From Ariolimax columbianus (taxonomy: Eukaryota; Mollusca; Gastropoda; Stylommatophora; Arionidae): a DNA stretch of 64,000 nt. The stretch spans positions 43,294,793 through 43,358,792 of the forward strand of contig JAVGWX010000004.1 of NCBI GenBank assembly GCA_036924085.1, in the 5' to 3' direction. Shown piece by piece: positions 11,561 through 58,265 of this stretch. A program made the position numbers and the translations under genes. The notes beneath the pieces were generated by a model. It saw nothing but the letters and a program-made list of their open reading frames with translations. It did no database searches and was not told the DNA's origin. Numbering within the stretch: position 1 is the first letter of the stretch; the number at the start of each line of letters is the position of its first letter.

Positions 11561-11656
11561 TCCACATGATGAGAACGTTAAAATATATGCTTCATTCCAT
11601 TTATGAATATTCTTCGAGTCCAAGAATGTGCAGCATTTATTTTGGAAACCGGTATG

Positions 11657-11742
11657 AACTTACCTGTAGACCTAACAAGGCCGCATGATGAAGTTAGCTG
11701 TAAACCTAACAAGGCCGCATGATGAAGTTAGCTGTAAACATA
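11657..11742. repeat. 34-bp minisatellite, left part
   Basis: About 2.5 units of GATGAAGTTAGCTGTAAACC plus TAACAAGGCCGC. The array continues at 13,045 after a mariner insertion. The final TA (11,741-11,742) is the left copy of the transposon's target duplication. Confidence 0.9.
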
Positions 11743-13044
11743 CAAGGGGTGTTCAAGTCAAACCGGTACTTCTTTTGCAAGGGGAAAAAAACTATGTTCA
11801 AGTAGTCAAAATGACATTTATTTTTTTATATAATCTACTGCAACGTATATGCACGTATTTCAGCATTTAAGTAATGTTTGAAAAGATATAGCGTAGAAAG
11901 ATTTTTCAGAATGTTTGAACCAATTTAAGACAGCCTGTTTCACTTCGTCATCAGTGCTGAATCGCTGACCTCCCAGAAATTCTTGTAGAAGTCCAAACAG
12001 GTGGAAATCGCTTGTAGCGAGGTCTGGGCTGTAAGGTGGATGTGGCAATACCTCCCAGTCTAGTTGCTACAGATGGCACATAGTGCGGTGAGTCGTATGA
12101 GGTCGAGCGTTATCTTGCAGGAGGAGGATGCCCTATATGATCAAACCAGGCGGTTTTTTCTGCAGACGTTTATGCACATCACTCAAAATGCGTATGTACT
12201 GTTCACTGTTGATATTGGCACCACGAAGTAGAAAATCGTCATGAATGATGCCAGGTTTGTTCTAGAAAACACTCGCCATTACTTTACCTACAGACGAATT
12301 GTCAGAAATGTGTTGGGTGGTGGGGTTTGCGCGTACTTCTACTGCTTGCATGTTCGTTTCTATTCAGGAATATAATGATGCGGCTTGGTTTCATCACATG
12401 TAATGATACGATCCAAAAAGTCATGCCTTTACATGTCAAAATGTTTCTTCAATTCAGTTCAGGCTTGAACCCTTCTCTGCCGATCAGAAGCGGAAAGCTG
12501 TCTTGGCACCTATCGTGGACTAACCTTCCGAAACTGCACATGTTCATGAAAAATAGTCTTCACCGTACCCAGAGAAAGACTTGCCTCTTGTGGAATTTTG
12601 TGACAGGTTATGCGTCGATTTTCCAGGATAAGGCGTTCCACAATCTGGATATTCACAGGAATGATTGTGGTGCATTGAGAACCACCACGGCTGGGATCAT
12701 CACACATGAATGTACGGAATTTTCTAAAACATTTACACCATTCAACTGTCTTACTGCGGCTGAGTGTCTCATCACTGCATTGTGGTTGCAGTCGTCTGTA
12801 AATTTCAGCAGGTTTCACGATTTCTGTCACAGGAAAATTCATCACAACACGCTATTTCATGCAAGCACTAATAGTGTTGCCTGTCATTTTTATTTATCTG
12901 TCTCTAGACTGGTTCTTGGCAAGTAGGCCAATAAGCAGTAATAGGACACAAGTGCCCCAAACAAATGTTAGTAGTTCTAGCACGCTACAGCCCATTCAGG
13001 TAGAACTAGAACAAAAAGTCCCGGTTTGATTTGAACGTCCCTCG
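11743..13044 (-). mobile_element. Mariner element, complete with TIRs and TA TSD
   Basis: The 1,302-bp element has terminal inverted repeats of about 30 bp. The left end reads GTTCAAGTCAAACCGGTACT. The right end, read inward, gives GTTCAAATCAAACCGGGACT. It is flanked by TA on both sides (11,741-11,742 and 13,045-13,046), the target duplication of the Tc1/mariner superfamily. Both flanks are units of the same 34-bp minisatellite; removing the element and one TA restores an intact AAACmTAACAAGG unit junction. Size and ends fit a full-length mariner. Confidence 0.93.
11860..12850 (-). pseudogene. Mariner transposase (DDD), broken
   Basis: Translated on the minus strand in order: an HTH region (PAEIYRRLQ, ETLSRSKTVEWCKCF, then a second helix set ERLILENRRITCHKIPQEAS); DFLDRIITCDETKPHHYIPE with the first catalytic aspartate (near 12,385); GIIHDDFLLRGANINSEQY; LLLQDNARPHTTHRT with the second aspartate (near 12,115); and PPYSPDLATSDFHLF with the third (near 12,005). 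The catalytic triad is therefore still readable. The gene is dead because of stops after the YIPE segment, after VF (a TAG where tryptophan is expected), after GLII and after CHL, plus a frameshift after FRKVSPR. The C-terminus ends FQTLLKC then stop, where a related copy continues LLKLWDECIKV. Confidence 0.92.
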
Positions 13045-13617
13045 TAACAAGGCCGCATGATGAAGTTAGCTGTAAACCTAATAAGACCGGATGATCAAGT
13101 TAGCTGTAAACCTAATAAGGCCGGATGATGAAGTTAGCTGTAAACCTAATAAAGCCGGAGGATGAAGTTAGCTGTAAACCTAATAAGGCCACATGAAGTT
13201 AGCTGTAAACCTAATAAGGCCACATGAAGTTAGCTGTATACCTAATAAGGCTGGATGATGAAGTTAGCTGTAAACCTAATAAGGCTGGATGATGAAGTTA
13301 GCTGTAAACCTAATAAGGCTGGATGATGAAGTTAGCTGTAAACATAATAAGGCTGGATGATGAAGTTAGCTGTAAACCTAAAAAGGCTGGATGATGAAGT
13401 TAATTGTAACCTAATAAGGCTGGATGATGAAGTTAGCTGTAAACCTAATAAGGCCACATGAACTTAGCTGTAAACCTAATAAGACCGCATGAACTTAGCT
13501 GTAAACCTAATAAGACCGCATGAAGTTAGCTGTACATCTAATAAGACCGCATGAAGTTAGCTGTACATCTAATAAGACCGCATGAAGTTAGCTGTACATC
13601 TAATAAGACCGCATTCA
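13045..13617. repeat. 34-bp minisatellite, right part, ~18 copies
   Basis: Continuation of the array at 11,657. Units contain GTTAGCTGTAAACCTAATAA and end GGCTGGATGATGAA or the shorter GGCCACATGAA, so two length variants (34 and about 30 bases) occur in homogeneous runs. This suggests local expansion of variants. Confidence 0.95.
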
Positions 13618-51550: not shown

Positions 51551-51699
51551 ACTAAAAGTTTGGGTGGAGAGGGGAGAAGGATGGGGAGTTCCAATAAAAC
51601 TGATACTTTTTGTTCTAGTTATACCTGAATGGGTTATAGTGTGCTAGAACTACTATCATTGCCATGGACCAGCAACATAACAAATAAATAAAAATGGCG

Positions 51700-52360
51700 G
51701 ACAACATTGTTAGTGATTACATGAGACGGCGTGTTGTGACTTTGTTTCTTGTGAAAGAAAGCGTGAGTCCTGCAAACATTTACAAAAGACTGCAATCACA
51801 ATACGATGATGAAACACTCAGCTACATTAAGACGTTTTAATGATGTAAACGTTTTAGAGAAGATCATACATCCGTGAGTGATGATCCCGGCTGTGGTGGC
51901 TCTCAACCCTTCACAGTCATTCCTCTTTAATATCCAAATTGTAGAACGTCTTATCCTGAAAAATCGACGCATAACCTGTCGCGAAATTGCACAAGAAGGA
52001 AGTCTTTCTCTGGGTACATGAACACTATTATTCGTGAACATTCACATTTTCGGAAGTTTATTGCACGTGTGGTTTGATCAGAAACGGCGTCCTGCTCTGC
52101 AATATAGCGCTTGATCTCATACTGCTTACCGTAAGATGTGCCATCTGCAACCACTCGACTGGTAGGTAATACCACATCTACTTTACAGCTAAGACCTCGT
52201 TCCAAGCCATTTCCACCTATTTGGACACCAATTAGAATCTCTGGAAAGTCATTTCAGGACGTGAAACAGACTGTCCTGGATTGGTTCAGACATACTGACA
52301 CATTATTCTACGCTGAAGCTTTTCAAGCGTTACTCAAACTCTGGGATGAGTGTATAAAAG
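51700..52360 (+). pseudogene. Mariner transposase, deleted and broken
   Basis: Plus strand: MADNIVSDYMRRRVVTLFLV, ANIYKRLQSQYDDETLSYIK (HTH), VSDDPGCGGSQ, IVERLILKNRRITCREIAQE, EHSHFRK; then a deletion of roughly 430 bp removes the first catalytic aspartate. The reading resumes at LQYSA (family LQDNA, so the second aspartate is Y), then a shifted-frame PHPPYSPDL-like box, and finally DVKQTVLDWFRHTDTLFYAE, AFQALLKLWDECIKV, where the C-terminal codons run straight into the 20-bp array. Two in-frame stops lie near 51,838. Confidence 0.92.
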
Positions 52361-55300
52361 TTGGGATAAGTGTAAAAACTCTGGGATAAGTGTATAAAGG
52401 TTGGGATAAGTGTATAAACTCTGGGATAAGTGTATAAAGGTTGGAATAAGTGTATAAACTCTGGGATAAGTGTATAAAGGTTGGAATAAGTGTATACACT
52501 CTGGGATAAGTGTATAAAGGTTGGGATAAGTGTATAAACTCTGGGATAAGTGTATAAACTCTGGGATAAGTGAATAAACTCTGGGATATGTGTATAAACT
52601 CTGGGATAAGTGTATAAACTCTGGGATAAGTGTATAAACTCTGGGATAAGTGTATAAACTCTGGGATAAGTGTATAAACTCTGGGATAAGTGTATACACT
52701 CTGGGATAAATGTATAAACTCTGAGATAAGTGTATAAACTCTGGAATAAGTGTATAAACTTTGGGATAAGTGTATAAACTCTGGGATAAGTGTATAAACT
52801 CTGGGATAAGTGTATAAACTCTTGGATAAGTGTATAAACTCTGGACACTCTAAGTGTATAAAGGTTGGGATAAATGTATAAACTCTGGGATAAATGTATA
52901 AACTCTGGGATAAGTGTATAAACTCTGGGATAAGTGTATAAACTCTGGGATAAGTGTATAAACTCTGGGATAAGTGTATAAATTCTGGGATAAGTGTATA
53001 CACTCTGGGATAAGTGTATAAACTCTGGGATAAGTGTATAAACTCTGGGATATGTGTATAAACTATGGGATAAGTGCATAAACTCTGAGATAAGTGTAAA
53101 CACTCTGGGATAAGTGTATAAACTCTGGGATAAGTGTCTAAATTATGGGATAAGTGTATATACTCTGGGATAAGTGTATAAACTCTGGGATAAGTGTATA
53201 AACTCTGGGATAAGTGTATAAACTCTGGGATAAGTGTATAAATTCTGGGATAAGTGTATACACTCTGGGATAAGTGTATAAACTCTGCGATAAGTGTATA
53301 AACTCTGGAATAAGTGTATAAACTTTGGGATAGGTGTATAAACTCTGGGATAAGTGTATAAACTCTGGGATAAGTGTATAAACTCTTGGATAAGTGTATA
53401 AACTCTGGACACTCTAAGTGTTTAAAGGTTGGGATAAATGTATAAGCTCTGGGATAAATGTATAAACTCTGGGATAAGTGTATAAACTCTGGGATAAGTG
53501 TATAAACTCTGGGATAAGTGTATAAACTCTGGGATAAGTGTATAAATTCTGGGATAAGTGTATACACTCTGGGATAAGTGTATAAACTCTGGGATAAGTG
53601 TATAAACTCTGGGATAAGTGTATAAACTCTGGGATATGTGTATAAACTATGGGATAGGTGCATAAACTCTGAGATAAGTGTATAAACTCTGGGATAAGTG
53701 TATAAACTCTGGGATAAGTGTATAAATTATGGGATAAGTGTATAAACTCTGGGATAAGTGTATAAACTACGGGATAAGTGTATAAACTCTGGGATAAGTG
53801 TATAAACTCTGGGATAAGTGTATAAACTCTGGGATAAGTGTATAAACTCTGTGATAAGTGAATAAACTCTGGGATAAGTGTATAAACTCTGGGATAAGTG
53901 TATAAGCTCTGGGATAAGTGTATAAACTCTGGGATAAGTGTATAAACTCTGGGATAAGTGTATAAAGGTTGGAATAAGTGTATAAACTCTGGGATAAGTG
54001 TATAAAGGTTGGAATAAGTGTATACACTCTGGGATAAGTGTATAAAGGTTGGGATAAGTGTATAAACTCTGGGATAAGTGTATAAACTCTGGGATAAGTG
54101 TATAAACTCTTGGATAAGTGTATAAACTCTGGACACTCTAAGTGTATAAAGGTTGGGATAAGTGTATACACTCTGGGATAAATGTATAAACTCTGAGATA
54201 AGTGTATAAACTCTGGAATAAGTGTATAAACTTTGGGATAAGTGTATAAACTCTGGGATAAGTGTATAAACTCTGGGATAAGTGTATAAACTCTTGGATA
54301 AGTGTATAAACTCTGGACACTCTAAGTGTATAAAGGTTGGGATAAATGTATAAACTCTGGGATAAATGTATAAACTCTGGGATAAGTGTATAAACTCTGG
54401 GATAAGTGTATAAACTCTGGGATAAGTGTATAAACTCTGGGATAAGTGTATAAACTCTGGGATAGGTGAATAAACTCTGGGATATGTGTATAAACTCTGG
54501 GATAAGTGTATAAACTCTGGCATAAGTGTATAAACTCTGGGATAAGTGTATAAACTCTGGGATAAGTGTATAAACTCTGGGATAAGTGTATACACTCTAG
54601 GATAAGTGTATAAACTCTGAGATAAGTGTATAAACTCTGGAATAAGTGTATAAACTTTGGGATAAGTGTATAAACTCTGGGATAAGTGTATAAACTCTGG
54701 GATAAGTGTATAAACTCTTGGATAAGTGTATAAAATCTGGACACTCTAAGTGTATAAAGGTTGGGATAAATGTATAAACTCTGGGATAAATGTATAAACT
54801 CTGGGATAAGTGTATAAACTCTGGGATAAGTGTATAAACTCTGGGATAAGTGTATAAACTCTGGGATAAGTGTATAAATTCTGGGATAAGTGTATACACT
54901 CTGGGATAAGTGTATAAACTCTGGGATAAGTGTATAAACTCTGGGATAAGTGTATAAACTCTGGGATATGTGTATAAACTATGGGATAAGTGTATAAACT
55001 ATGGGATAAGTGTATAAACTCTGGGATAAGTGTATAAACTATGGGATAAGTGTATAAACTATGGGATAAGTGTATAAACTCTGGGATAAGTGTATAAACT
55101 TTGGGATAAGTGAATAAACTCTGGGTTAAGTGTATAAACTCTGGGATAAGTGTATAAGCTCTGGGATAAGTGTATAAACTCTGGGATAAGTGAATAAACT
55201 CTGGGATAAGTGTAAACACTCTGGGATAAGCGTATAAACTCTGGGATATGTGTATAAACTCTGGAATAAGTGTATAAACTCTGGGATAAGTGTGTAAACT

Positions 55301-55419
55301 ATTGGATAAGTGTATAAACTCTGGGATAAGTGTATAAACTCTGGGATAAGTGTATAAACTCTGGGATAAGTGTATAAATTCTGGGATAAGTGTATAAACT
55401 CTGGGATAAGTGTATAAAG
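52339..55419. repeat. 20-bp satellite array, ~154 units
   Basis: The unit is CTGGGATAAGTGTATAAACT, with variants (GGTTGGGATAAG, TTGGGATAAG, CTTGGATAAG, GGGATAAATG, GGGATATGTG). Read on + in phase with the transposase it codes L-W-D-K-C-I, the mariner C-terminal motif; the first unit still reads LWDECIK. The unit has no stop on the minus strand in any frame, so three-unit (60-bp) periods give very long minus-strand frames of repeated EFIHLSQ, SLYTYPR and VYTLIP. These are not genes. A marker variant, CTGGACACTCTAAGTGTATA, recurs at 52,841, 53,405, 54,129, 54,313 and 54,737, showing higher-order duplication. Confidence 0.97.
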
Positions 55420-55519
55420 GTTGCAAGAGATTATATAGAATAATAAATTGCATTTTGACTAATTGAAAAAAAAGAATGTACCTCTAAAAAAAGTTCCGGT
55501 TTGACTTGAATGCCTCTAG

Positions 55520-56944
55520 TATGCATTTTCATTGATATGTTGTTCGTTCCTTTTATAATTGTAAATCGTTCCACTAAGCTGAATACAATCTTGCAGTTAC
55601 TTTTTGGATCCTTAGGCCATTAATAGCTCTTCACGTTGTATACAATTCTTCGAAACATTTACAAAAGTAACAGAGCAATACGGATGGTGACCCTATGACT
55701 AAATTTGTTTGATATTTCGCCAAATCCACATGTGTGCTAACATGTGAGCTTTACGTTTGTCCACGTCACAGCACCATTAGGGCGCATTGCAGGACGGAGA
55801 AGAAGTGCAACGAAGATGTGAGACGGGTGAGGAGTGCGCGAGGTGATTTAAAAAACAAAAATTCTTGAGGAAAGATATTGAATGATGGGGGAATAGACTC
55901 TTGTTGATGAGGAGAGATGTGCAGTGGGGAAATCACAAATTACATTTCGAGGTTCGTAAAAATACATTTTTTTTTTTTGGTTGCCCCTAAAAGTGTGGGA
56001 TCTCTTTAAATATAACTGCTGATCTCTTGAGGGTTGACTCGCATTCCATGTTAAGAACCATTACCTTAGTAGGTGAACATGCTTATGAAATTACTATGAC
56101 TTCTTAATAACTTATGTGGGCCGGGTATTTCTCTGACGCTAGAACTGCTAGTCCACAACCAGTTGGAAGTAGACCACTCACTAATGTCCCTTAAACTCTC
56201 GTGTAGCCCCAATGGTGTAGGGGATGGCAGGTCAGTGACTTCATTGAACCACACATCAGCTCTTTAAAAGGTGAGGTGGCCAGTTCCATTCTCTCGCGTC
56301 TTTCCTTCTCAATCAACAAGCCAGGTAACAATTTACAAGTGAATCGACTTGAGCGAATCAATAAAGGGAAATTCAACAATTCTGCTACACAGGCGGTCTC
56401 TGTTGCCTGAGTACACCCGGAACAACTATTCAAACAGACCAATCAAACAATCCAAACCCGACTGATTCCAAGGCAGAGAGAATAGGTTCACCATGTCTCC
56501 TTCCTTGGTATATCGTTAAGTGTCGACTAAAGAAGGTTGTGCATGGGACTAGCACCCTCACCATGTTAAAAACCATCGACATGAAACCGCGCTGAAAATG
56601 ACTGAAATTAGTATTTCCTCAAAGAAGGTTAGGATACACCAAATGTAATGATGTATATGTGCATCAACCGATGACTGGAATCAGGCTTTGCTAAAAGATG
56701 GTTAGGATAAACTAAATATAATGTTGGATCTATACTTCAACATATGGAGCAGAGGAATATGTTTTTTCATTGATTGATCATACGACCACCGGCAAAAACA
56801 GAGCTCCACTAGACAGACAATAATGGGACTTTAATGGAATCAGGACAGACAACAAACAAGTACACAATCAGAACATTAGAGATTTAAAAAACACACCTAA
56901 AACAGAATCAAAATAATAACCAAAGGCAGAACAAATGTTGTGTC
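55520..56944. other. Intergenic, no gene recognised
   Basis: The minus-strand frames at 56,066-56,442 show no family. At 56,525-56,640 there is a short dispersed phrase (GTTGTGCATGGGACTAGCA) shared with 31,920. Confidence 0.5.
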
Positions 56945-57884: not shown

Positions 57885-58265
57885 GGAGGTTGCTGTTGAA
57901 TGCCCACAATGAATAACATTCTTCTCTTATGCGCCTTGAAAAAAATGGAGTTGAGGCGAGTATTGCAATACCTTTTCTTACATGCCAAGCGTGTGGATGG
58001 AGGTAAACTGGGGTCCTTTGGATGGTGTTGCTATGTTTGGCTTCAACTGCGTGTCGCTCACTACTATGAGGATAACGTCAATCCCTCACCTCGTTAGCTA
58101 GGCAGCTATAAAACATTGTTTCCAGGGCGCTGCGAGAATGCGTGGCTGAGTTCTTGACTAGTATATTTAACCTGACTAACATGTCTAATCAGTATGTTTT
58201 GCCTGACCCTGATTAACATGTCTGATCAGTATATTTTGTCTGACCAAAACGTTAGTCTCCTCTTC
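57885..58265 (+). repeat. Dispersed repeat C, copy 4
   Basis: Carries TTGCTGTTGAATGCCCACAA, AATACCTTTTCTTACATGCC, GGGGTCCTTTGGATGGTG, GCGTGTCGCTCACTACTATG, CCTCACCTCGTTAGCTAGGC, TTTCCAGGGCGCTGCGAG and a duplicated 3' end, CTGACTAACATGTCTAATCA at 58,172 and CTGATTAACATGTCTGATCA at 58,209. It ends CCAAAACGTTAGTCTCCTCT like copy 3. Confidence 0.82.

Follow-up and report, generated by a model that had tools for sequence, protein, structure and literature searches.

A 20-bp tandem array inside a mariner transposon of Ariolimax columbianus is probably one outcome of a recurrent process, in which minisatellites are born, mostly independently, between short direct repeats built into the transposase codons. 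The window (the whole stretch of DNA that was analysed, 64,000 nucleotides) contains two related mariner copies: M1, which encloses the array, and M2, in which the same segment occurs once. The position of the array, its seed, the single-unit relatives, the recurrence over many loci and the rank of the direct repeat are all observed. The features of the two copies are as follows.

51581..52335 (left boundary approximate), + strand: 5' part of M1, internal-deletion class D1 (BLAST to M2, translation)
52336..55418, + strand: 20-bp tandem array of M1, about 153 units of AAACTCTGGGATAAGTGTAT, with large internal block duplications (Tandem Repeats Finder, unit decomposition)
52336..52355, + strand: first (seed) unit of the M1 array, in the transposase frame (sequence, translation)
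55419..55519, + strand: 3' part of M1 with the 3' terminal repeat, TA at 55,520 (BLAST, terminal-repeat match)
11742..13044, - strand: M2, with a single mutated seed unit and TA on both sides, inside a 34-bp minisatellite (terminal repeats, TA)

The array within M1

Tandem Repeats Finder places the array at 52,336-55,418, with a period of 20, 153.1 copies, 90% matches, a score of 4992 and AAACTCTGGGATAAGTGTAT as the unit, in close agreement with the initial annotation, which had noted some 154 units at 52,339-55,419. The seed unit translates as K-L-W-D-E-C-I in the mariner frame. On the left the array emerges from ...AEAFQALLKLWDECIKV, and on the right GGTTGCAAGAGATTATATAGA resumes, followed by the mariner 3' end, where 21 of 27 bases match the terminal repeat and a TA comes next. 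The proposal that the array grows out of the transposase reading frame on one side and returns to ordinary mariner 3' sequence on the other is therefore borne out. The claim that both ends of the transposon are still recognisable stands for the right end only: on the left we found neither a terminal repeat above the threshold nor a recognisable TA, the left terminal repeat being degraded. According to BLAST, M1 consists of blocks corresponding to positions 4-81, 125-531 and 897 onward of M2. Since positions 537 to 898 of M2 are missing from it, M1 is a deletion derivative. The translated frames of both copies contain many stops, in M1 in every frame read.

Most of the array is made of one unit type. 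Minority types such as AAAGGTTGGGATAAGTGTAT are found towards the left end and within repeated blocks; AAAGGTTGGGATAAGTGTAT is the right-hand word AAAGGTTG joined to the unit body, as a first slippage product would be. Two exact blocks, 301 bp at a lag of 1,472 and 213 bp at a lag of 1,896, point to later duplication of many units at once. They could also mark false duplication, as long tandem arrays are easily misassembled. Nonetheless, misassembly is scarcely credible as the source of the M1 array or of its length: arrays of varied sequence and length are present in at least 34 other places and the unit variants change along M1, and on these grounds we rejected an artefact as the whole explanation. 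Antisense open frames of up to 467 aa cross the array (window 52323-55483, minus strand) and spell a 20-residue repeat. They exist because the reversed 20-bp unit happens to lack a stop codon, and they are probably incidental. A coding role for the array was rejected for the same reason, together with the stops on the sense strand.

Identity of the two mariners

M2 has both terminal repeats, each adjoining a TA. It sits in a 34-bp minisatellite (window 11654-13611) with array on both sides, the inverse of M1, which encloses its array. One of three M2 pieces matches the Transposase_1 profile (E 7.5e-8, above the Pfam cut-off), while the other two have no Pfam match; the same piece matches solved SETMAR and Mos1 chains with E-values from 5.4e-28 to 2.1e-21. 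In other words, a DDE transposase is recognised in M2 by profile, and M1 is assigned to the mariners through its DNA homology to M2. Likewise, terminal inverted repeats with a TA target site duplication are found in M2, and in M1 at the right end only. When the seed codons are read in a 60-residue piece of the single-unit copy L063, they align with RWQKC in SETMAR (E 8.7e-5) and with RWEKC in Mos1 (E 9.5e-5). It is thus within the codons for the conserved C-terminal RW-D/E-KC motif that the M1 array begins, as had been suggested from the unit alone.

M2 had also been read as the ancestral state of M1. It does carry the segment once, but across the matched pieces it shares only 74-75% identity with M1 and, as judged from sequence, is a diverged sister copy rather than an ancestor. 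Single-unit seeds better preserved than that of M2 exist elsewhere in the genome, for example in L054 and L063.

Array-free relatives

With the 788 bases that precede the M1 array as the query, we obtained 5,759 first-look candidates and scored 40. From these best 40 of 5,759 comes a sample of 29 array-free loci other than M1, picked by likeness to M1 and not at random. No array is present at the seed in any of the 29 close relatives read. A whole seed unit occurs once in 27 of them, and the other two (L060, L070) have small deletions within the seed. All 29 carry the deletion class of M1, D1. This single-copy state is what the direct-repeat model of Haber and Louis expects. Because the mariner flanks join the array at homologous codons, the 29 relatives read are array-free and the motif aligns with SETMAR and Mos1, the analysis supports a minisatellite born in place, from transposase codons, within the dead mariner copy M1. 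The initial annotation had proposed just such an origin; what changes is the number of events, since birth in place now looks recurrent across loci rather than single.

Array loci elsewhere in the genome

We compared the first 162 bases of the M1 array with its own genome (2,294,143,704 bases, 401 contigs). There were at least 146 matches, and 40 of 59 candidates were scored, likeness to M1 determining what was found; the counts of array loci are therefore lower bounds. Grouped by eye, the matches outside M1 fall into at least 34 regions (L009-L042). In 28 of these 34 an M1/M2-like mariner adjoins or encloses the array (BLAST). Both array boundaries lie at the same codons in 21 of the 28, as read by eye from the flanks and counting L029, which has a short deletion at the left array edge. 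The right mariner flank is lost in L021, L027 and L028 and the left one in L041, and in L020, L022 and L023 other sequence sets in some 15 bases before the array starts. Seven of the 28 loci (L009, L016, L020, L036, L038, L039, L041) match the terminal repeat at both ends in at least 19 of 27 positions, each end beside a TA, and the remaining 21 fail this two-ended test.

Array sizes in the loci seen, M1 included, range from about 100 bp to 3.1 kb and are spread over many contigs. At these sizes the loci do not fit a classical satellite, with its very long, homogeneous, heterochromatic arrays, and the 20-bp repeat is better called a dispersed minisatellite. At L021 (1994-6773) some 4 kb of other sequence separates two blocks of the same 20-bp unit; an insertion may have split one array. 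A dispersed repeat, which in places forms a tandem array with a unit of about 37 bp (TGACTAACATGTCTGATCAGTATGTTTTGCC-like), occurs in the window at 58171-58258 and near L009, L010, L012, L017, L023, L034 and L041.

Four of the 34 loci (L012, L030, L033, L042; periods 20, 20, 22 and 18) have no M1-family flank. Their right flanks contain codons like ...DKCINVGENYVKK, which makes a second mariner lineage their probable source, and their arrays, going by these codons, probably sit at its matching motif. A search with the L012 piece alone gave no Pfam and no PDB match. Among the six loci without family-A flanks, terminal repeats amounted to 12-18-bp inverted matches only, in a search run without a control. 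The last two loci, L026 and L031, carry a 21-bp version of the array (59 and 110 units), and no mariner was found beside either. Between the two loci the flanking sequence shows 98.7% identity along 1,050 bp and 98.1% along 360 bp; they are thus one locus duplicated with its array. They lie on two contigs, and each has neighbouring arrays of 33, 37 and 23 bp. Checking the flanks, as the initial annotation had recommended, accordingly gives 28 loci of the same mariner family, four of a probable second lineage and two that are mariner-free.

Mariner-free arrays are what one might see if a satellite that already existed had been captured by mariners, or copied into them through ectopic conversion; the authors who described Xenopus miDNA4 proposed capture for their own element, as reported in PMC12628747. 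Here such a history is very improbable, and we rejected it. The mariner's own coding sequence supplies the unit, which is homologous both to the single unit of the relatives and to the RW-KC motif in Mos1 and SETMAR, and both boundaries are at homologous codons in 21 of 28 loci.

A direct repeat at the seed

Birth in place leaves the question of why this segment and why 20 bp. In the well-preserved copies L054 and L067, the seed (codons for K-R-W-D-K-C-I and the next ones) reads AAACGCTGggataagtgcatAAACGTTGcagg. It contains two 8-bp words, alike in 7 of 8 bases and exactly 20 bp apart; in L054 the stretch is AAACGCTGGGATAAGTGCATAAACGTTGCAGG, with the word twice at the same likeness and spacing. 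We scored every position in a region that begins 660 bp upstream of the seed and ends shortly beyond it, at spacings of 12-60, taking the mean over 27 unexpanded copies (27 of the 29, as L060 and L070 with their seed deletions were omitted). With windows of 6, 8, 10 and 12 bp, the seed at spacing 20 ranks first among 32,634 combinations of position and spacing. Copy by copy the repeat is high, not always at the top, and moderately unusual (median p 0.04). Of the 29 single copies, 17 have an exact run of 5 bp or more at spacing 20, another 11 have one of 2-4 bp, and in the last it is 1 bp. On average, therefore, the unexpanded state shows the direct repeats of roughly 5-10 bp at the period spacing on which the Haber and Louis model relies.

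The duplication step, its timing and the number of independent births we infer along the following lines. The 8-bp words 20 bp apart would mispair during replication or break repair, so that the 20-bp segment is duplicated. Once at least two units were present, slippage, unequal exchange and block duplication would enlarge the array. Births of this kind would have been many and mostly independent, in different copies of the family after their insertion, and would probably have occurred also at the matching motif of the second mariner lineage. If so, arrays are born repeatedly at this stretch apparently because its built-in short repeat invites duplication.

One origin or many

The loci could also be explained by a single event, in which one mariner gained an array once, moved in trans together with it and seeded all array copies, the single-unit copies being either original or contracted. 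We regard this as unlikely, although part of the evidence fits it. The tree comprised 28 array rows (27 loci and M1; L022, for which columns were too few, was dropped) and 30 single rows (29 relatives and M2), with the seed columns masked. It is poorly resolved: 3 of 55 inner branches were starred and the bootstrap had not settled. A preceding tree, built from M2 and the 28 array rows, has 3.57 of its total length of 3.69 in terminal branches. Over this almost star-shaped tree the array-bearing copies are scattered instead of clustering as descendants of one array would. The array label on the larger tree requires 22 changes, compared with a shuffled mean of 19.6-19.7, and the starred branches alone force 3. 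Placing all array rows in one clade makes the lnL 63 worse, with an AU p of 0.053, a value by which the AU test does not formally reject it and which counts in favour of a single ancestral array. Uniting the ten D1 array copies in one clade against the 29 D1 single copies makes the lnL 37 worse (AU p 0.054; 7 changes). A single origin of the arrays is therefore disfavoured, with formal rejection not reached by the AU test.

Internal deletions also count against a single origin, since array copies span several deletion classes and the D1 class includes both states. The D1 gap is common to ten array copies (M1 and nine loci) and all 29 single copies, and its junction letters look alike in the ten array copies and in the 14 of 29 single copies compared. 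Other array copies have other deletions, similar in L009 and L036 and again among L014, L016 and L039, whereas the array copy L011 has no internal deletion in the part covered.

The units themselves point in both directions. Among 29 loci (28 and M1) there are 25 distinct unit consensus sequences, which argues against one ancestral array. Some loci do share a consensus (M1 with L011; L010 with L016; L009 with L015 and L019), as a single origin would predict; such sharing may result from ascertainment with the M1 query, and equally from exchange or common origin. L026 and L031 make it evident that copying can include an array together with the sequence around it. On the other hand, units are often less diverged than their host: the spread of units around the consensus is smaller than the terminal branch of the host copy in 20 of 28 rows (27 loci and M1), several of them nearly tied. 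For M1 the values are 0.046 and 0.15. In the other 8 of the 28 rows the units have diverged as much as the host copy or more. The simplest account is that births after insertion were numerous and that exchange or common origin may have played some part.

Other arrays and the host genome

Arrays at other sites of the same mariner family offer a further look at the direct-repeat idea, and the outcome is mixed, the sites being few and found after the fact. L017 and L025 have 24-bp arrays at the same segment, about 72 bp upstream of the seed. This is the third or fourth best distinct site with windows of 8-12 bp and drops to rank 90 with 6-bp windows; in M2 it shows an 8/10 direct repeat (p 0.009). 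At L011 (259-1499, + strand, locus coordinates) 44 copies of a 28-bp unit lie beside the 20-bp array in the same mariner. The 28-bp unit encodes the catalytic-site codons F-I-T-R-D-E-T-W-V, and the start of its array corresponds in M2 to a 9/10 direct repeat at spacing 28 (p 0.011). The site of a 39-bp array in L014 is unremarkable (6/10, p 0.11; 7/10 with another window). L040 has a 15-bp array at the D1 deletion junction, a site absent from the top 12 of each window in the direct-repeat scan.

Tandem arrays with a period of at least 10 occupy 9,719 of the window's 64,000 bases. For the 29 array-free loci the figure is 12,557 of 107,481 bases, of which the mariner bodies contribute 67 of 27,260. 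From this coverage the host genome seems to form minisatellites freely, and the mariner seed would be one well replicated case of it.

Significance and comparison with known systems

Minisatellites derived from transposons are already known; the new part is repeated birth at one coding seed. The starts of minisatellites are hard to study because each is usually seen only once. Here one starting sequence is present in many genomic copies (5,759 first-look candidates, 40 scored), and at least 28 loci beyond M1 have an array at or next to it. This amounts to a natural experiment with replicates, in which the unexpanded state and the seed are known and the effects of seed mutations on array birth can be counted. 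A protein-coding motif, by the chance of its codons, seems to serve as a satellite seed. It is tempting to go further and speculate that the conserved C-terminal mariner motif is an intrinsic, recurrent seed, at which different mariner lineages, perhaps in many animals, sprout arrays of 18-22 bp. We put this forward tentatively, as an idea that may well fail. If true, protein constraint on R-W-D-K-C-I-x-V-x-G holds two similar DNA words about 20 bp apart, and array birth at the motif has happened dozens of times in this genome. A scan of viral contigs with a two-unit pattern gave no matches. In a full-text literature search that covered few subscription journals, no title or abstract opening dealt with recurrent array birth at a mariner transposase motif.

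The closest parallels are found in other animals, and we compare them as far as the cited portions of the sources describe them. Ahmed and Liang (2012, PMC3389668) trace 7,276 human tandem repeats to transposons, AluS and LTR12 being hotspots; 300 of these repeats lie between direct repeats of 5-20 bp, in keeping with the Haber and Louis model. As in the mariner family described here, those minisatellites arise within inserted transposon copies and some regions are hotspots. The LTR12 hotspot may stem from a repeat already present in the source (PMC3389668), whereas the unexpanded mariner relatives have one unit. Unlike the human cases as presented there, expansion here recurs at one coding seed, which is also the top-ranked direct repeat of the element.

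Among Tc1/mariner-type elements, miDNA4 is a Xenopus MITE with an internal satellite (PMC12628747, PMC9659126). It resembles M1 and its relatives in having an internal array, of one unit or many depending on the copy, for which short direct repeats are invoked. However, miDNA4 is a MITE and its satellite is thought to have been captured (PMC12628747), whereas the unit of the present arrays is part of the transposase coding sequence, and their births look independent from locus to locus. Xenopus Xstir and the bivalve MITE satellites are likewise cases of transposon sequence amplified as a satellite; these are MITE-derived, and recurrence at a single coding motif is not mentioned in the cited portions of PMC12628747 and PMC9659126. 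Finally, in Mboumar of Messor ants a mariner is also physically associated with satellite DNA, according to the part of PMC9659126 that treats it. Mboumar lies inside the satellite, just as M2 lies in its 34-bp array, and in M1 the arrangement is reversed, with the array inside the mariner.
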